This document shows, piece after piece, positions 8,447 through 32,540 of a stretch of DNA of 38,402 nucleotides (the stretch's first letter is position 1; every line of letters starts with the position of its first letter). The DNA is from a virus: the IMG/VR virus record IMGVR_UViG_3300032285_000718, positions 1-38,402 of that record; one strand, given 5' to 3'. Below the pieces are notes generated by a model. The model ran no database searches. It was not told the origin of the DNA and saw only the letters and a list, made by a program, of their open reading frames with translations. The translations under genes were made by a program, and so were the position numbers.

Positions 8447-9181
8447 CTAGCCTCCTCCAAATGCTGACAATCTATTGTTAATTCTATTTTCAAGTCCAAC
8501 AATAAACTTCCTTCTTCTTGGATCTGCCGCGGCTCTTGCTCTTTCATCATTTAATTGCGCTTGGCTTGCCGCAATCATAAGGTCTTTGGGATTTACGCTT
8601 CCGATTGCTGACAATGTTTTAGGTCCGATTGCACCATCAACAGCCACATTCTGGCCGAGGCTTCTCAATCCCTCTTGAAGATACTTTGTTGCACCGCCCA
8701 TTCCACGATTAAACGCGAGATCCTGCGCGAATGGCTGGATGGCTTGCGGAAGTTGTGATACGAGTGGGGCTGTGTACTGGCTGATGTATTCGGCTGCTGC
8801 CGCTTCCCTGTCTTGGGCTGGCAATCCAGCGATCTTTCTGAATGCTTCTGGATGGTATCTGTCATTGATTCCAGCTACCTCATAATCTCCACCCATATCC
8901 CCCTCTGGCAAGGCGTATACGGAAAGATTGCCCTTCTTGTCCCGCCTACCCTCCCAATTGACTGTGGTTTTTGCCGCATTCAGTAAATCAAAATTTGATG
9001 CACCTACTGATGGCTTTATTTCCGGTTCAATGACATCAAAGCCAAGATCAATTTTATCCTGTTTCTTTACTGCCATGACCGGTTGTGGCTGTGGTTGTGG
9101 CTGTGGTTGTGGCTGTGGTTGTGGCTGTGGTTGTGGCTGTGGCTGAATATTATCCTGCATCATCTTCTCGTATCGTTCCAT
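8447..9181 (-). CDS. GH108-type lysozyme with peptidoglycan-binding region and N-terminal virion-type tag
   Basis: The 244-residue product has an AAKTTVNWEGRR segment whose Glu77 is at the place of the GH108 catalytic Glu. It is followed by RYHPEAFRKIAGL, an EYISQYTAPLV helix, FAQDLAFNRGMGGATKYLQE and VDGAIGPKTLSAI, which match the GH108 plus PG-binding-3 arrangement. In front are a Gln-Pro tract (13-34) and LGFDVIEPE (46-54), the same motif repeated in the 1382-residue protein upstream. There is no signal peptide. It could be the endolysin, or a virion-carried lysozyme that opens the wall during DNA entry; the shared motif favours the latter or both. The start is set by an AAGGAG six bases upstream. 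Confidence 0.82.
   Translation of the reverse strand: MERYEKMMQDNIQPQPQPQPQPQPQPQPQPQPQPVMAVKKQDKIDLGFDVIEPEIKPSVGASNFDLLNAAKTTVNWEGRRDKKGNLSVYALPEGDMGGDYEVAGINDRYHPEAFRKIAGLPAQDREAAAAEYISQYTAPLVSQLPQAIQPFAQDLAFNRGMGGATKYLQEGLRSLGQNVAVDGAIGPKTLSAIGSVNPKDLMIAASQAQLNDERARAAADPRRRKFIVGLENRINNRLSAFGGG
9081..9145. repeat. 12-bp tandem repeat encoding Gln-Pro tract
   Basis: A 12-base unit (ggttgtggctgt on the plus strand) is repeated about five times with small variation, inside the lysozyme gene. It encodes alternating Gln-Pro, a stiff extended linker between the first ten residues and the LGFDVIEPE motif. Tandem repeats of this type can change copy number by slippage without shifting the frame. 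Confidence 0.9.
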
Positions 9182-9182
9182 T

Positions 9183-12100
9183 TTATTTCTCCTTTGGCTT
9201 CAAATATTCCCTATTATAATTCAAGAATTGTCTTTTTCCGTCTTCGGCTCCGCGTTCGTACGCTCTCTGCAATGCCTTAATTTTAAAGTCTGGCTCCATT
9301 CCATCAAATGTTGGACTTTCAAAAAGCTTATCAACAAGAGCCTTTCTTCTTTGGCCAACATATTCCTGGTAAATTGCATATTGGTTTTCATCAAGCTTAT
9401 ATGTCACTTTTTTATCCATAACATTTCTGGATGGCACAGATGGCAGGGTATCTGGATTATTTGTTTCTTTCCAAAGTTTATATAATGAAAGATTTGTATC
9501 ATCACTTGGAACCATGCGTGACCTTGTGACATCTAGGAAATTATAAAGAAATGGATTTGCCCCTTCAGGAGTTTGCTTGATTGGATTGCCCCACATATCT
9601 CTTTTTAGTGGAAGCTCTTCCGCGCCAACTGCCTCGCGCGCAAACTCTGGCATTTTTGACTTAATAACATTTGCAAATAGTTGCAAGCTATTATCCGTTC
9701 TTGTGTCAATCATATTCTCTCTGCTTGCCTTGTTAAAGGCTTGCAATGTATTCGGGAACGGAATTGATGAAATTGTTCCATACAATGATTCAAGATAGCT
9801 GTCATAATCTTCTTTTGATATTGCATTAAGAAGAGTATTCGTACTTTTTAGGAATGTTTGATTAAGGGTATAGCTTGCAACTGATGGCAAGCCTTTCAAT
9901 GTAACATCCATCATATCTTCAACTAGTCCGGAACCCTCATTTTTGCTCAGAACATTTGAGTAGACATTAAATATTGTTCCAAGATAACCAAAGTTCTCAA
10001 AGCTCCACATTTTATCATTGGGTTGAATTGTTGGATCTTCTCCATTTAATAACCTATTCAATCCAGACATGTTCAGCGTATTAGGTGGTTGTGTTTCATA
10101 TTGCATTCCACGTTCTTTTGCTGATTTAGGTGCAGATCCAACAATAATTCCTGCCCTATAAAGTCCCGCTGCCGCGCCACCAATTACTGTCCCAACAATC
10201 CCGCTGGCAGCCATTTCCAATGCCTTCCTTCTGTCCCCCTTGCTTGCATAATATGCGCTTTTGGTAAATGCCAATCCAGGCACGGCCAAATCTACAACAT
10301 CGGAAACAACATTAACTGGAGTTTTTGTGTACGGCGCAACAATTGATTTAATTAATGGCCCAACTGCTGGTATTCCTTTTACCGCATTCGCCACAACTCC
10401 AATTACAGATGTAAGTTTTGTATCCTGCTGGAATGTTGCCTTGGCAGCCTCATTTGATATTCCCTTTAACTCGCCTTTAGTGGGAAACTTTACACTTGCC
10501 AATACTTCTTCTGGATTCTTACCGGCCAGTATTGCCTGTTCTGCCAACAAACGCCCCTCTGCCACTCCCCTTGCCGGAACGTCACCAAGAGTTAACGCCC
10601 TTCCTACTGGTTCCGTATACAATCCAATTGTTCCTTCTACAAACTTTCTTAATCTATCGACAAGTTGGACATTGCCCTTGGCATTTGTAACCATGTCCTT
10701 CCCTGTGAGTGCTTGGGCAAACGATTTGAATACCCTAAATCCTTTTACACCCTCACCAGCCAAAGCCGAAGAAGCGGGAATACCTTCACCAAAGAATGCG
10801 CGAATAGCTTCTTTTGTTTTTTCAGCACCGCGCATCATTGCTCCTCTTGTTGTAAGTGGAGATTGAACCATTGTTCTGGGTTGCTTTGTCACATAACTGA
10901 TTACTGCATCGCCAGCAGTTGCAAGGGATCTCACTCCTAGCTGGCCAACTGCCCTAGCCACATTGAAGACTGGATTTTTAACAAGAGATAATGGGCTTAA
11001 AAGCGTAAGTTGAATTGCCTGTGGAAGTATTTCGCCAAAAATCTTTTTAGGCAAAAGACTTTCAGAATATCTTTGTAATTGTATCGTTGCTTTGGCTGCT
11101 GCATTTCTTGCATTTTCAGCAATAATAGCTGTTGCATCTGTAGGATTTGATCTATAATTTTTTTCAGCATCAATTAAAATCGCCTTTGCTTTTTTGCTGG
11201 CATTAAACAATTCAATAATCTTGTTTTTTGCATAATCCGGAATAATTCTTTTATTTGCTTCGGCTGTTTTTATAACGGAAGCCAAATATCCAGCTGGGGT
11301 TTTTAGGTATTCCTGTATGTTTCTTAATCCAAGTCCATATGAAGAAGCTGCCTTTACAACCTCATTCCAATTAATTGAGGCAGAATATGGGTCGGAATCA
11401 ATTTGCCTTGCAAATAATAGTGCATTTGCACCATCTATTTCAGATTGATTATTAGATGATGCAATTGGATTACTTCTTGCAATCTTATTTAATTCTTCAT
11501 CAGAAAGCTCTTCAAGGTTTTCACGAATAGCACCTACTGGAACATTTTTCCTTACTGTATTCGGCTGAAGCGCAACCTCTGCTTTGGTTTCCGTGGGAAC
11601 ATTTTCAGATTTTAACACTCGTTCAGCCGTCTTTGCTATTTTAGATCCTTCTGGAACTTCTGGCATCTTAAACTCTGGACGAGTTGTACCTGGTTTAAAT
11701 CCTTCCTCGCCAATGGCCCCGGGGCGAATTGGTTGCTTGCCTTCTGGCGAAACTTCTAGTGCGCCTCTGATTAGCATTGTCTCCGATCCTTCTTTTGAAT
11801 GAGGCAATGTTATTCCCTCAATGCCTTGTTTTTTTAGGGAATCAAATACTGGTTTGTCGAGCAAGCCAGATTCAGGTGGAATTTTGTTTGAGATTGAATT
11901 TCGCAATATATTGGCAAGCCTAACCTCTCCAGATTCCCTCAAGTCAGCCTCAACAGCAGATAAGGTTTTATAAAAATTATCTGGATTTCTCCAGTCAATA
12001 ATTCTGTCTGTCGGTATGTTTATCTCGTAAATTTTCCCCTGCTCTGCCAATGCTTTTTTGTATGCTTCGATTTTTTCAAGCGCAGAACTTGCTTCATCAA

Positions 12101-13331
12101 ATTCTTTTGATGACAAGAATTGATCTGGGTTTGCAGTTGGATCTTCTCGAAGACCCTTTCTATACATATCGTAAGACAATCTCTCTTCACTTGTTAATCC
12201 AACTTTATTTAAGTCAACATCCTTTGTCCTCGATAGCCTATATGAAGATGAAACATCTTTTGATTCAGACACAAAAACAAGTCCTCTTGCATCACTTTTT
12301 ATGTTTTCAATAGATGTTGCTGGAGATCCATGATAAAATGTTTTTGTTGGAACATTCTCGGTTGCCGCAGTAGCAGCTTTTGGAACAATAGTTTCTGGAG
12401 GTTGTGGTTTTACTTGTAAGGAAGGAGTAACCTTCGGTTGCATCAATTGTTGCAATTTATCAATACTCTTTGTAGGACCAGACAATCCAGCACCAACAAC
12501 CATAGGAGTTGCAATCTCAAGCGATTTTGTGGCTATTGGGAATCTTGCAATATCAGCTTCGCGCAATCTCTGATAGTCTGCGTAACCCTTCTCTCCGGCC
12601 AATATCCTTGCAAGCCCAGCCTGCCCCATCTTTCCTGCCTCATATCCAGCAGTTCCCCCAACAAGGCCACCCGCAAGAACTCCAGCAGGACCACCAACTG
12701 TACCAGCCGCGGCACCAACCAATGCTCCTCCAACTGCTGCAGCACCAGGGATGATTTGCTCGCCTACTGATCGCAATGACGCACCAAGAAGAGTTGGAGG
12801 CCTTTCTTCAATGCGAACGATCTGTCCATCCTTTGCCTTACCAACTGCAAAACCAACTCCCTTCTCCTTATCAAATCCTGACGATACAGTAAGCACACCC
12901 TCATCCATCGCCTTCCTTACCGCTGGCAATGCTTCCGGTTGAATTAATCCTTTCTTGATCGCCTCCTCGGTTGGTGCATACCCAGCGGATATAGAACCAT
13001 CTGGCCTTGTCTCTGGAGGCAATGCCTCAAGAGCATCTGTTGCCTTTAGCAATGCATCTTTGGGAGATAATCCAGACTGAATGTTTTTGTTTAATTCATT
13101 ATTAAGAAAATCAGCGCGCTCAGGAGCGTAAACATCAAGTGGATTCCCACCCTGCGCAACATAGTCTCGCTTTATTTGAGACAGGTATTGCCTGTCTGGC
13201 TCAATTACATCAAATGACTCGGAAGGAGTTGGTTGAGTTTTCTCTGGCTCAATTACATCAAAACCAGCATCTTGCTGGTTTTTTCTTGCCTCTGGTTCAA
13301 TAATGTCAAACCCCAAGTCGGGACTTGCCAT
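9183..13331 (-). CDS. Large internal virion/ejection-type polyvalent protein with ADP-ribosyltransferase-like domain
   Basis: The product is 1382 residues, the longest here. Residues 1-48 are three 16-residue units each holding FD(V/I)IEP(E/D). Residues ~195-235 are Gly/Ala-rich and hydrophobic, as in proteins that enter membranes on ejection. Residues ~330-525 resemble ADP-ribosyltransferases of phage polyvalent proteins: FYHGSPATSIENI (His334), a strand-turn GLVFVSESKDVSSSYR, IYEINIPTDRIIDW, and IEGITLP...SETMLIRG near the end. Residues ~755-1380 contain hydrophobic helices and PLIKSIVAPYTKTPVNVV, which recalls the C-terminal region of long podovirus polyvalent proteins. It is likely packed in the head and injected. 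The ART call is a motif-level inference; no activity is shown. Confidence 0.72.
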   Translation of the reverse strand: MASPDLGFDIIEPEARKNQQDAGFDVIEPEKTQPTPSESFDVIEPDRQYLSQIKRDYVAQGGNPLDVYAPERADFLNNELNKNIQSGLSPKDALLKATDALEALPPETRPDGSISAGYAPTEEAIKKGLIQPEALPAVRKAMDEGVLTVSSGFDKEKGVGFAVGKAKDGQIVRIEERPPTLLGASLRSVGEQIIPGAAAVGGALVGAAAGTVGGPAGVLAGGLVGGTAGYEAGKMGQAGLARILAGEKGYADYQRLREADIARFPIATKSLEIATPMVVGAGLSGPTKSIDKLQQLMQPKVTPSLQVKPQPPETIVPKAATAATENVPTKTFYHGSPATSIENIKSDARGLVFVSESKDVSSSYRLSRTKDVDLNKVGLTSEERLSYDMYRKGLREDPTANPDQFLSSKEFDEASSALEKIEAYKKALAEQGKIYEINIPTDRIIDWRNPDNFYKTLSAVEADLRESGEVRLANILRNSISNKIPPESGLLDKPVFDSLKKQGIEGITLPHSKEGSETMLIRGALEVSPEGKQPIRPGAIGEEGFKPGTTRPEFKMPEVPEGSKIAKTAERVLKSENVPTETKAEVALQPNTVRKNVPVGAIRENLEELSDEELNKIARSNPIASSNNQSEIDGANALLFARQIDSDPYSASINWNEVVKAASSYGLGLRNIQEYLKTPAGYLASVIKTAEANKRIIPDYAKNKIIELFNASKKAKAILIDAEKNYRSNPTDATAIIAENARNAAAKATIQLQRYSESLLPKKIFGEILPQAIQLTLLSPLSLVKNPVFNVARAVGQLGVRSLATAGDAVISYVTKQPRTMVQSPLTTRGAMMRGAEKTKEAIRAFFGEGIPASSALAGEGVKGFRVFKSFAQALTGKDMVTNAKGNVQLVDRLRKFVEGTIGLYTEPVGRALTLGDVPARGVAEGRLLAEQAILAGKNPEEVLASVKFPTKGELKGISNEAAKATFQQDTKLTSVIGVVANAVKGIPAVGPLIKSIVAPYTKTPVNVVSDVVDLAVPGLAFTKSAYYASKGDRRKALEMAASGIVGTVIGGAAAGLYRAGIIVGSAPKSAKERGMQYETQPPNTLNMSGLNRLLNGEDPTIQPNDKMWSFENFGYLGTIFNVYSNVLSKNEGSGLVEDMMDVTLKGLPSVASYTLNQTFLKSTNTLLNAISKEDYDSYLESLYGTISSIPFPNTLQAFNKASRENMIDTRTDNSLQLFANVIKSKMPEFAREAVGAEELPLKRDMWGNPIKQTPEGANPFLYNFLDVTRSRMVPSDDTNLSLYKLWKETNNPDTLPSVPSRNVMDKKVTYKLDENQYAIYQEYVGQRRKALVDKLFESPTFDGMEPDFKIKALQRAYERGAEDGKRQFLNYNREYLKPKEK
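13194..13310. repeat. Three 48-bp direct repeats encoding GFDVIEPE units
   Basis: Related 21-base segments begin at 13194, 13242 and 13290, exactly 48 bases apart, at the start of the 1382-residue gene. Each encodes FD(V/I)IEP(E/D) at residues 8-14, 24-30 and 40-46. A fourth copy lies at 9020-9040 in the lysozyme gene. Third-position differences between copies indicate selection on the peptide rather than recent DNA duplication. Confidence 0.88.
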
Positions 13332-13335
13332 TGTA

Positions 13336-14082
13336 TTATCTCATCCTTACTTTGCCGACACCTTGAATGTAAACAATATCTCCAGCTTTTGCGCCAGCAT
13401 TAATTGCCTCGTCTCTTGATTTATATGTAGGAACGGCCTGTTGCGGCTGTACTGCTGGTTGCGTCTGTTGTTGCATTTGTGATGCTGGTTGTGGCTGGGA
13501 TGGACTTACTACAGAAGGAACACCATAGTTTGCTGGCATTTGCTGTGATTGAATTGACTGCAATTTCATTCCAGCAATATTTCTTTTTTCTTCTGTTGAT
13601 GCTATTTTGTTTTCAATATCTTTAGTTTGCTGTGCATATGATTTACCAAACAAAGCACCAGGCAACCAATCTGGACCAGGTTTCTCTCCGCCCATCCAAC
13701 CAGCTTTTGCTGTAGCAATATCATTTTTCTTTTGTAAATTTTGTTCTAGCTCAATCTCTGCTGCAGCTAAATTTGCTTTTGATTTCGTATAATTTGCTTG
13801 CTGTTGAATCTGCCAATCCATTTGTTTCTGCCTTACCCATTCCTCCTTCTGCTCGCGTGGCAACGATGCGAATGGGATTGTGTCGCCATTTGCATCAATC
13901 TTGAAATTTTCATTTGGCAAAACTTGATTCGACCTAATAATATCCTTCTCTTGTTGATTTTGTGTGTATGAATTTAATGTTGCTCTTTGTAGTTGTTCGG
14001 ATAATTCAGCCCTACGCAATGCATCTTTATCCCCAAAAGTTTGGGGAAACATTGCCGCCAAATCCATTGTAATTTTACCCAT
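13336..14082 (-). CDS. Gln-rich coiled-coil internal virion protein candidate
   Basis: The 248-residue product starts behind AAGGAGATTT. It is Gln-rich, with a coiled-coil-like stretch around residues 85-125 (QQQANYTKSKANLAAAEIEL) and another near 165-185. A Gln/Pro-rich linker follows at about 190-215, and the end is compact: AVPTYKSRDEAINAGAKAGD then VYIQGVGKVRMR. That small C-terminal unit is typical of phage structural proteins. It lies between two large ejection candidates and probably works with them. No enzyme motif is visible. Confidence 0.6.
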   Translation of the reverse strand: MGKITMDLAAMFPQTFGDKDALRRAELSEQLQRATLNSYTQNQQEKDIIRSNQVLPNENFKIDANGDTIPFASLPREQKEEWVRQKQMDWQIQQQANYTKSKANLAAAEIELEQNLQKKNDIATAKAGWMGGEKPGPDWLPGALFGKSYAQQTKDIENKIASTEEKRNIAGMKLQSIQSQQMPANYGVPSVVSPSQPQPASQMQQQTQPAVQPQQAVPTYKSRDEAINAGAKAGDIVYIQGVGKVRMR

Positions 14083-27713: not shown

Positions 27714-28268
27714 CTATTTTACCACATCCATATCTTTGGACAGCTTTATCGCCCAGGAGTCACCATTGAATAAGGTGTAATCCTTATCGCCAATCTCTTC
27801 TTTCAGAGCTTTCTTTACAGATTCCCAACTCCAATCGTGACCAGCCATAATACCGCCGTCTTTAAGCTTTTTGCGCCATCCTTTTAGGTCAGCCAATACG
27901 CCTTCGTACCTGTGGTCTCCGTCAATATAAACCAAATCGCATGATGCATCCGGAACAAACTCCAATGCATCCAGGCTTTTACCCCGACTAAACATGACAT
28001 TACCAAGGCCCTTGGTACGTTCTTGGAATGCTTCAAATACAAACTTCATCGGGCATTGTTGACTTGCCCTATCCTTAATATCGTATCCGTTTAACCAAGG
28101 ATCTACGGCAAGGATTTCCTTGAAATACTTGGCTAAAACAATTGTTCCTTCGCCACTATACGCACCAATCTCTATCGCCTTGCCCGTGGCACCTTGCTCA
28201 TTTGCCCACTTGCAAAGATCAGCCAAGCCTTCCTGTTGGAAGGCATCCCGCATTACCGGAACTTTCAA
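27714..28268 (-). CDS. Class I SAM-dependent methyltransferase (Methyltransf_24-like)
   Basis: The product has 184 residues. IEIGAYSGEGTIVLAKYF is the SAM-binding motif I, ILAVDPWL carries the acidic residue of motif II, and CDLVYIDGDHRYEGVLADLK with GGIMAGHDW are typical of the small methyltransferases that act on glycans or small molecules. No DNA-methylase DPPY or PC motif is present. The gene starts by ATGA overlap with the portal, so it is made with virion proteins. The target might be a virion sugar or protein. Confidence 0.85.
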   Translation of the reverse strand: MKVPVMRDAFQQEGLADLCKWANEQGATGKAIEIGAYSGEGTIVLAKYFKEILAVDPWLNGYDIKDRASQQCPMKFVFEAFQERTKGLGNVMFSRGKSLDALEFVPDASCDLVYIDGDHRYEGVLADLKGWRKKLKDGGIMAGHDWSWESVKKALKEEIGDKDYTLFNGDSWAIKLSKDMDVVK

Positions 28269-30157: not shown

Positions 30158-30613
30158 TTAAGCCAGGGTGAGAAGATATTTAAGTTGGTTTAGATCGCCC
30201 AAGATTGCATCGCGAATGTTGAGAAGATCAGTTGATTGATCCCCAACAATTTCATTAAACCTTCCGGACAGGAATTTGATCAAGTTGTTTGTAAACGCAA
30301 CGCAAGACTCAAGGTTCATATAGTTTTGAACCTTATAATTAAATCCATTGCTAGGAATAATCCGACCATAACGACCCATGAAGGTTTCAATCAATTCATC
30401 AATGTTGTCATTGAGTGAATCATAAATTTTCATAAACGCCTTGTGCTGGCTGTATGATTTGGTCTGCCAATGAAAAATCCTGTACTGCTGTTGAGCGGTG
30501 ACAAGTACTGTCAGCAATTCCGCGCCGCCCTGTGCATTTGATTTGCCTTCGCTCATGTTCCCGTACAAAGACGAAAATTGTGAATCCATCGGGTTAATTT
30601 CATTTGATGCCAT
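30158..30613 (-). CDS. Dps/ferritin-like phage protein (DUF5856-like)
   Basis: The 151-residue all-helical product has QYRIFHWQTKSYSQHKAFMK followed by IYDSLNDNIDELIETFMGRY. His48, His57, Asp72 and Glu76 lie in the order of Dps ferroxidase ligands; the spacing of the last three (15 and 4 residues) equals that of E. coli Dps His63, Asp78 and Glu82. This resembles the DUF5856 group seen in some large DNA viruses and phages. It may bind iron, protect DNA, or be a repurposed structural helix bundle. It lies just before the portal gene. GAGGAAC precedes ATG 30613. Confidence 0.68.
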   Translation of the reverse strand: MASNEINPMDSQFSSLYGNMSEGKSNAQGGAELLTVLVTAQQQYRIFHWQTKSYSQHKAFMKIYDSLNDNIDELIETFMGRYGRIIPSNGFNYKVQNYMNLESCVAFTNNLIKFLSGRFNEIVGDQSTDLLNIRDAILGDLNQLKYLLTLA

Positions 30614-31115: not shown

Positions 31116-32540
31116 TTATCCTCCTGGGTCAAATCCGGCCATAACGGGGTCGTGTGCCACCATCATGTCCTGAAGTGACCTCCAAGTTGGACGCTCTATC
31201 TGGAAAGTCAAGTCCATCCCTATGTTTGAAGGGCTAAGGCACAAGGCAAGGGCATCCGCCCTATCCGGTGATGCCAATCCCCTTGCGCGCATGGAGTCCT
31301 TGGATTCCACACCAAGTTTGCCCTTGCTGTTTGTGATTGTCCGCCTGCATGTCAATTGAGCAGTTAAGTCCTCGTCTTCCGGCAAAATGATCTCGGCATC
31401 CTCGATCTTCTTTGCCATGCCGTACCACATCTCGGCTGACCGGTTGGTGTAGGCATTGTTGTCGTATGCCGTGCCACCAAAGTTGACCCTGTTGACTACC
31501 CATCCAGACTCAGCCAGGGCATCGCACATAACCATTCCCATGCCACTTGCGTCAGCGTAGATGTTGCTTGCTTCCAACCCTGCCTTCTTAAATTCCACGA
31601 TAAACCTACCCACAGCCGCCATCGTATCCTTTTCGCGCCATGCAATCATGGGCAGGATCTTGTTGCCATCGCTTATGCAGATCACGTTTTGATCGCCTCC
31701 GGCGGCAAAGTCTACGCCAGCCATCCTTACCCCTGGCTTGAATCTAGGTGGTGAGTTATAGCAGTTCTGAAGTTGGTTTAGGTTAATGACCAGGCTTTCG
31801 GCACCTATGTCCACAAACTCGCCGTAAATCATGGAGCGGGTCAGCGGATGCTTCTCGCCATACCGCTGGATCACCTCGTCAATCTGCGCCTTGGTTATAT
31901 GTGGGCAGTCAAAGGCTGTGACAGCGTGCTTCTGCCACATTGCTGCTTCCTTGGTAAATGCCCTGTAAAACGCACCGCTGGTACCTCCAGGGCTGGATGC
32001 GATTAGTAAGCGGGTTGGTTGACACCGGCTGATCGCCTCAAATAGCGGGTCTGCTACAGTCTTGGCTTCGTCAACGACCATGAGCAATGGGTGGTATTCG
32101 TGGTCTTCTGCATGCCAACCTTCAGCCCTACCAGGATCTGTCGCTGAGTAGCCTATAATGCGTGATGTATTGCCGTTAGGGTGAAGGTAGCGGATTTCGC
32201 CGGATGTGACCTCCCAATTGCCACCAAGCTTCGCAATGTGATTGCGTAGGCTGGGCCAAAGTTGGCTTTCGACCTGGCGGAAAACGCCAGCAGTAGTTAC
32301 AGCGATTGAACGCGGGTAAACCAGCGCGTGCCATATTAGAATTGCTGAAATTACCGTGCTTGTCTTGCCGGAGCCGTTGGCTGCACGCAGGGCTACGCGA
32401 CAGTCTCTTGGCTCTAAATCGCGTAATACCTTTCTTTGCCATTCATAAAGATTAATGCCCAATACGTTAGATGCGAAATTTACTGGCCTGGATAGATCAA
32501 GCAGAATCTCTTCTTGGCTACGTTGGGGAGGCTTTGGCAT
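31116..32540 (-). CDS. Terminase large subunit
   Basis: The product has 474 residues. The ATPase part holds Walker A ANGSGKT (54-60) and Walker B LLMVVDEA (152-159). The RNase H-like nuclease part holds Asp277 in MAGVDFAAGGDQN, Asp330 in IYADASG and Asp426/Asp429 in SPDRADALAL. A C-terminal portal-contacting tail follows. This is the DNA-packaging motor. The gene lies between the small subunit and the holin-like gene, with 61 bases of noncoding DNA before it and no obvious ribosome site close to ATG 32540. Confidence 0.93.
   Translation of the reverse strand: MPKPPQRSQEEILLDLSRPVNFASNVLGINLYEWQRKVLRDLEPRDCRVALRAANGSGKTSTVISAILIWHALVYPRSIAVTTAGVFRQVESQLWPSLRNHIAKLGGNWEVTSGEIRYLHPNGNTSRIIGYSATDPGRAEGWHAEDHEYHPLLMVVDEAKTVADPLFEAISRCQPTRLLIASSPGGTSGAFYRAFTKEAAMWQKHAVTAFDCPHITKAQIDEVIQRYGEKHPLTRSMIYGEFVDIGAESLVINLNQLQNCYNSPPRFKPGVRMAGVDFAAGGDQNVICISDGNKILPMIAWREKDTMAAVGRFIVEFKKAGLEASNIYADASGMGMVMCDALAESGWVVNRVNFGGTAYDNNAYTNRSAEMWYGMAKKIEDAEIILPEDEDLTAQLTCRRTITNSKGKLGVESKDSMRARGLASPDRADALALCLSPSNIGMDLTFQIERPTWRSLQDMMVAHDPVMAGFDPGG

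Follow-up and report, generated by a model that had tools for sequence, protein, structure and literature searches.

Why should two different proteins of one virus carry the same short peptide near their N-termini? The question is raised by a viral DNA of 38,402 nucleotides (IMG/VR record IMGVR_UViG_3300032285_000718, positions 1 to 38,402; this whole stretch is called the window here), in which a lysozyme and an adjacent 1382-residue protein of ejection type both contain FDVIEPE or a near copy of it. We consider it probable that this peptide, hereafter the tag, docks as a short linear motif to a C-terminal mini-domain, hereafter the socket, and that such docking tethers the lysozyme and the large ejection-type protein to an adjacent, probably internal, virion protein. 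Judged from sequence comparisons, the docking-tag reading is well supported. The following features are concerned:

9183-13331, minus strand: large ejection-type protein of 1382 aa with three N-terminal tags
8447-9181, minus strand: lysozyme of 244 aa (PG_binding_3; endolysin PHROG) with one tag, starting directly after the large gene
13336-14082, minus strand: protein of 248 aa upstream of the large gene, without Pfam or PHROG family, bearing the candidate receptor
13339-13434, minus strand: candidate tag receptor, the C-terminal mini-domain VPTYKSRDEAINAGAKAGDIVYIQGVGKVRMR (residues 217-248 of the 248-aa protein), proposed from class switching, co-occurrence and similarity tracking
13290-13313, minus strand: tag copy 1, GFDIIEPE, residues 7-14 of the large protein
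13242-13265, minus strand: tag copy 2, GFDVIEPE, residues 23-30 of the large protein
13194-13217, minus strand: tag copy 3, SFDVIEPD, residues 39-46 of the large protein
9020-9043, minus strand: single lysozyme tag, GFDVIEPE, residues 47-54, in the linker joining N-terminus and catalytic domain

In the large protein, whose N-terminus reads MASPDLGFDIIEPEARKNQQDAGFDVIEPEKTQPTPSESFDVIEPDRQ, the copies FDIIEPE, FDVIEPE and FDVIEPD start at residues 8, 24 and 40 and thus follow an exact period of 16 residues or 48 bp, and the lysozyme contains LGFDVIEPE with the F of FDVIEPE at residue 48. These four copies are the only matches to FD(V/I)IEP(D/E) in a six-frame search of the window; from the proteins' own composition, chance would give ~8e-6 matches for the large protein, 1e-6 for the lysozyme and ~1e-5 in total. 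A preliminary description of this DNA had placed the motif at these positions, which proved exact, and had concluded from differences at synonymous sites that the peptide is conserved, which holds as well. The DNA copies differ at third codon positions (GGG/GGT/GGC, GAC/GAT, GAA/GAG, CCA/CCG), and among 16 distinct homologues with the window's tag class the nonsynonymous differences per site per pair amount to 0.042 in tag codons versus 0.222 in spacers, at similar synonymous rates of 0.145 and 0.171. A low nonsynonymous rate at a similar synonymous rate indicates purifying selection on the peptide. The 16-residue period was rejected as a functional feature, since other tag classes are spaced by 9 to 12 residues. 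A DNA scan for tandem tags with TTC as first codon gave no match; the window copies all use TTT.

Is the peptide the same in relatives? Viral contigs were scanned with the large protein and the lysozyme, yielding loci L001-L156 and later L199-L260. In the tagged lineages the lysozyme gene directly follows the large gene, in nearly all of them with a 2-bp gap or a 4-bp overlap. The tags and sockets form six classes:

Class 1 (window): large protein FDIIEPE..(F/Y)DVIEPE..F(D/E)VIEPD; lysozyme (F/Y)D(V/I)IEP; socket VPTYKSRDEAINAGAKAGDIVYIQGVGKVRMR
Class 2 (L013, L017): large protein LEFVPD..IEFVPD..IEFVPD; lysozyme LQFVPD; socket IPQYNTPEDALKAGVKEGDRVIIGGRAGTFKRPK
Class 3: large protein LEFVPE..LEF(A/V)PL; lysozyme (D/E)F(V/I)EE; socket ending ..GVKPGQLIYINGKPGRLQARQ
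Class 4: large protein LEFVPE..LEFVPE; lysozyme EF(V/I)PE; socket ending ..GIKPGQTVIIKGQRGTLQPKR
Class 5 (L116, L193): large protein YEVLEPE..GYEVIEPD; lysozyme GYEIIEG; socket ending ..GAKTGDVITIQGVGKVRLK
Class 6 (L096-L104, L246): large protein GYEVLEDE..GYEVLP(D/E)E..YE(V/I)(V/I)EE; lysozyme GYEI(I/L)S; socket ending ..GAKAGDIVILQNAKKADGTVGPARVRLTR

Complete triplets of socket, large protein and lysozyme all lie on the diagonal of the six classes, without mixing inside a genome; the only two off-diagonal rows, L014 and L063, reflect patterns that were too strict. The class tag is limited to these two proteins in 11 complete or near-complete genomes. Close relatives that lack the motif, which the preliminary description had expected to refute its docking idea, do exist: L013 and L017 are 78-80% identical and have no FDVIEPE. 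The idea is nevertheless not refuted, as both of their proteins carry a matched EFVPD or QFVPD, and since both switched to the same new tag it is strengthened instead. As far as the sequences tell, the tag is an allele that varies in sequence rather than a fixed word.

The 248-aa upstream gene tracks the tag class too, with its final ~32 residues being the part that switches. Between L004 (class 1) and L013 (class 2), DNA identity is mostly 95-100% on both flanks of the cassette, up to the last third of the upstream gene and again from behind the lysozyme tag region. The stretch in between is mosaic, with about 60-98% identity; it drops to 42-50% where socket and tag array lie and to 40-52% around the lysozyme tag, and an extra trough of 43% within the large gene has no known relation to the tag. 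The lysozyme catalytic bodies of the two classes are alike (similarity score 0.96). Across the six classes, and with p-values taken as guides, tag similarity correlates with socket similarity (r = 0.65, p = 0.035, 720 permutations) and with lysozyme-tag similarity (r = 0.80, p = 0.033), and shows no correlation with similarity of the large-protein body (r = -0.15). The cognate score for pairing large-protein with lysozyme tags was met or beaten by 6 of 720 pairings, the true one counted. For 15 lineages that had been found without a tag pattern, tag and socket similarity gave r = 0.48, a value reached in none of 20000 permutations. The class 5 large protein is only ~31-34% identical to that of the window, and its socket (..GVGKVRLK) and tag (GYEVIEPD) are class 1-like; class 2 presents the opposite case, with bodies near class 1, and socket and tags like class 4. 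Tag spelling hence appears to follow the socket, not the protein body.

Does the pairing extend beyond this clade? All viral contigs were scanned at the DNA level for the socket pattern alone (A-G-x-K-x-G-D-x-[VI]-x-I-x-G-x-x-G). Wherever the socket is C-terminal, the next gene begins with an F-x-P tag in every distinct lineage bar L288: MAFVPDAPTKFVPD (L276), MDFVPDEPKKLEFVPD (L289), VAFLPD (L291), MAFIPDAPSKFVPD (L298), MGFLPD (L278), MAFKPL (L272 group) and MAFRP(L/I) (L268 group). The next gene of L288, the sole exception, starts with the weak variant MGFKADK, and socket-pattern matches deep inside other proteins belong to unrelated families. In one group (L109, L123 and like contigs), the socket sits on a protein of 392 aa, and the next protein begins with MAFRPL. 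In the reciprocal scan, for which the tag alone (M-A-F-[VI]-P-D .. F-[VI]-P-D) served as the pattern, a socket, typically ..KITINGV(S/T)GTW(Q/R/K), was found at the end of the upstream protein at 13 of 13 new loci, where the tagged proteins have sizes up to at least 1670 aa. At loci where no recognised tag starts the large protein (L079, L105-L115, L121-L156), the directly upstream gene is without a socket ending, apart from the correction that contigs such as L109 and L123 belong to the MAFRPL group. The window shows the paired layout, its N-terminal tags (13194-13313) lying immediately downstream of the mini-domain (13339-13434).

Among 612 non-redundant open reading frames (ORFs) of at least 200 aa with an upstream neighbor, 57 combine socket and tag, 552 have neither and 3 have one only, including L246, which is a pattern miss. 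The spelling of the two partners is matched as well: type I tags ([FY][DE][VI]-hydrophobic) pair with ..(K/R)VR.. sockets, whereas sockets of the form ..G(T/I/R)(L/F/W).. (..GT(L/F/W).. or close to it) accompany type II tags (F-x-P-(D/E/L)), a rule kept in 21 of 21 lineages if L288 is counted by its true ending GVSGTLTD, as DRVRIGG had triggered the KVR-type pattern. Searches of cultured phages by tblastn with the large protein or single mini-domain sequences gave no matches, or matches with E near 1 to 10 only; scans of genome contigs found no relative, and otherwise mostly chance matches in GC-rich genomes.

Since the L004/L013 block may have moved as one unit, linkage has to be retained as a rival explanation. 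Tag, socket and lysozyme linker would then be fast-evolving disordered parts of one recombining cassette and match by common descent alone. In agreement with this, the socket and the large-protein tags adjoin in the DNA, and the L004/L013 difference is a single mosaic block over all three genes, which includes the unrelated divergent patch of the large gene. However, linkage leaves unexplained that the same peptide occurs on two different proteins, that its spelling tracks the socket instead of the protein body, and that the same socket-tag pairing is met in unrelated phages from both search directions. We therefore regard linkage alone as unlikely.

A further possibility is that the tags bind another common partner, such as the portal, the capsid, a scaffold or the tag of another copy, the mini-domain being a parallel second adaptation. 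Repeated tags could indeed pair mutually as strands. However, a gene-by-gene comparison of classes 1-3 gave 84-95% identity for portal, large terminase, capsid and scaffold candidate, and these were rejected as partners because none follows the tag class, while the mini-domain does. Structure predictions bear on this question, too. In classes 3-6 the upstream and the large gene are in one frame, one stop plus one codon apart, so that the natural DNA read with TAA as Gly yields socket and tags in a single chain. For class 5 (L116), AlphaFold2 predicted a helix (20-25), strands at 33-36 and 40-45, and tag 1, AYEVLEP (49-55), as an extra strand; the mean predicted local distance difference test (pLDDT) score is 66.5, and about 80 across the mini-domain. 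Because the L116 linker is short, class 4 (L041) was added; its model (mean pLDDT 62.6) has a helix at 18-23 and strands at 31-34 and at 37-43, and here it is tag copy 2, LEFVP (71-75), that is predicted to form a strand, despite a distance of ~25 residues to the socket. Foldseek searches with both models returned nothing significant. With the tag strand modeled within the fold of the mini-domain, binding to another partner seems quite improbable.

If the tags dock to the mini-domain, what are the tagged proteins, and are they part of the virion? The large protein of the window has no significant Pfam, PHROG or PDB profile match, T7 gp16-type families included. In L276 the tagged protein has a partial match (26% identity, E = 4e-5) in 'putative internal protein C' of Xanthomonas phage PBR31, which there comes after 'putative internal protein B'. 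That of L304 contains a ddrB-ParB domain and has matches among DarB-like and virion RNA polymerase PHROGs; proteins of such kinds have been reported to enter the host by injection along with the phage DNA (PMC5512222; PMC12810830). Both matches favor an internal, ejected assembly to which the tagged proteins would belong, and the 248-aa protein is probably an internal virion protein. The preliminary description had proposed a modular docking tag that sends cargo into the virion, its copy number tuning dose or avidity. The docking part of this proposal is strongly supported by the co-switching of tags, the two-way scans and the DdrB/DarB-like tagged protein; packaging into the virion is plausible, and an effect of copy number on dose or avidity is conjectural.

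The lysozyme could alternatively be an ordinary endolysin, with the tag serving lysis or host takeover instead of virion loading. It matches PF09374 (E = 6.5e-10, above its cutoff) and the endolysin family phrog_315 (E = 4e-11), the scanned ORFs of the window include no second recognised muralytic enzyme, and its nearest relatives in cultured phages are short endolysins. On the other hand, these relatives have no room for a tagged N-terminal extension, the gene lies directly behind the large ejection-type gene, and in other phages the tag sits on partners other than lysis proteins, which leaves little likelihood for a tag in the service of lysis. That the tag is a T4-kind capsid-targeting propeptide is scarcely credible and was rejected: short N-terminal peptides on a putative internal protein would suit it, T4 capsid-targeting sequences having ~10 residues (PMC9026906), but no prohead protease was recognised among the Pfam and PHROG matches of the window's main ORFs (an unrecognised one being possible), the lysozyme tag lies at residues 47-54, and the tags come in several copies and switch with the C-terminus of a neighbor.

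Several points weigh against docking as the explanation. The lineages share ancestry, so that counts are not independent events and p-values are guides only, and the tag and socket patterns were partly set after the data had been seen. Socket and first tag are neighbors in the DNA, and their coupling could partly be linkage; only the lysozyme tag is separated from them, by about 3.5-4 kb. The lysozyme of L278 has no tagged extension, while in L105-like lineages the lysozyme keeps an FVGP motif although no socket is recognised. Confidence in the models is modest, and the addition of the tag strand to the hairpin is read from their strand assignments. As the only muralytic enzyme recognised in the window, the lysozyme may have a double role with lysis.

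We propose that a short linear docking motif exists in several alleles, FDVIEPE being one, and that it would bind the mini-domain (helix plus beta-hairpin, ~32 residues) in which the upstream product (13336-14082) ends, most likely, as the models suggest, by adding the tag as a beta-strand to the hairpin. The 248-aa protein would act as a hub, whose mini-domain on a Q/P-rich tether captures the tags of both proteins. The large protein with two or three tags and the lysozyme with one would in this way share one partner that tethers them, probably within the virion's internal assembly, and would presumably be loaded and ejected together. Conceivably, the multiple tags of the large protein engage several hub copies, with the single-tag lysozyme as a satellite. 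Motif and socket would co-evolve in matched pairs. Whether this amounts to a plug-and-socket code across many unrelated phages, in which an N-terminal F-x-P-D or F-D-V-I-E-P motif meets the helix-hairpin of an adjacent internal protein and insulates the loading of varied cargos between phages, is a question on which our judgment is evenly divided.

How phages choose the proteins that are packed into the head and injected is known in detail for few systems only. If the code holds, lysozyme, giant ejection proteins and DdrB/DarB-like polyvalent proteins would all be attached by it, and phages may own a general snap-on route for attaching proteins to be delivered into bacteria. Such a code could be read from sequence, has a named partner on each side and was found in unrelated phages; it would predict unannotated members of ejection complexes as well as phages able to exchange them. 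No prior description of the tag/mini-domain pair was found in the open-access literature, subscription papers lying outside this search.

Other tag-like motifs were observed. LSSRLP, LSSRM or FSSRLP, which may be a second tag, is N-terminal in the lysozyme of some lineages and in the large protein of others (L272, L105, L106, L112). The large protein of L256 (5134-8526) starts with ELDALFIPDK..ELDKLFVPDK below an upstream protein of unrelated ending, VTVRDPRGRLGYFPKAKWQENSRQLMQQGYVLLP; this pair may represent a second receptor type. PBR31, a cultured phage, may have another kind of tag/socket pair: its internal protein C (L301, 5317-6990) starts with the twofold repeat ELLNDVPPA, DLLSEAPAS, and the upstream protein lacks the mini-domain.

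Within the window, residues ~320-530 of the large protein (about 11740-12370) form a ~210-residue insertion that is missing in most homologues (1171-1193 aa) and present in the full-length homologues L001, L002 and L003; it has a weak match, below cutoff, to ART-PolyVal, a polyvalent-protein ADP-ribosyltransferase (E = 0.06). Lysozyme residues 13-34 (9080-9145) form a run of ~11 Pro-Gln dipeptides, which is long in the phage of the window and in place of which relatives have an ordinary Q/P-rich linker. The terminase (31116-32540) has Akkermansia phages as its closest cultured relatives (35-37% identity), and the best cultured lysozyme match is likewise one of these phages, hinting at a host among the Verrucomicrobiota. 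Between terminase and portal, a 151-aa protein (30158-30613) matches phrog_858 (starvation-inducible regulator) and has no match in any relative compared, and a DNA methyltransferase-like gene (27714-28268) lies between the portal and the probable scaffold gene.

How does the proposed system compare with known ones? T7 gp14, gp15 and gp16 are large internal proteins that are delivered together with a peptidoglycan enzyme before the DNA (PMC8954989), and the window proteins probably have the same functional class. In T7, however, the peptidoglycan hydrolase is a domain of gp16, while here it is a separate protein joined by the shared tag, and gp16 has no family match to the large protein. The Dar proteins of phage P1 (DarA/Hdf, DdrB, DarB) are injected and loaded through partner proteins, and the parts of these two sources that were consulted describe no docking tag or mini-domain (PMC12810830; PMC5512222). 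The likeness to the P1 Dar and polyvalent proteins lies in the tagged ddrB-ParB/DarB-like protein of L304. Docking in polyketide synthases and nonribosomal peptide synthetases includes a beta-hairpin docking domain and a short linear motif. There, a short peptide at the end of one protein pairs, with matched specificity, with a small domain at the end of the next gene product (PMC9113145), which is alike in form and by analogy only, the phage setting being one of structural genes. In T4, a short N-terminal targeting peptide routes the various internal proteins IPI-IPIII into the head for injection (PMC9026906) and so resembles the window tag in purpose. Membership in either the T4 or the synthase docking kind is not supported: the T4 sequence is single-copy and cleaved by gp21, whereas the window tags are repeated, no protease is recognised and one tag is internal (lysozyme residues 47-54). 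The window system also differs from T4 in its candidate receptor, a dedicated mini-domain that co-varies with the tag and belongs to the product of the adjacent gene.

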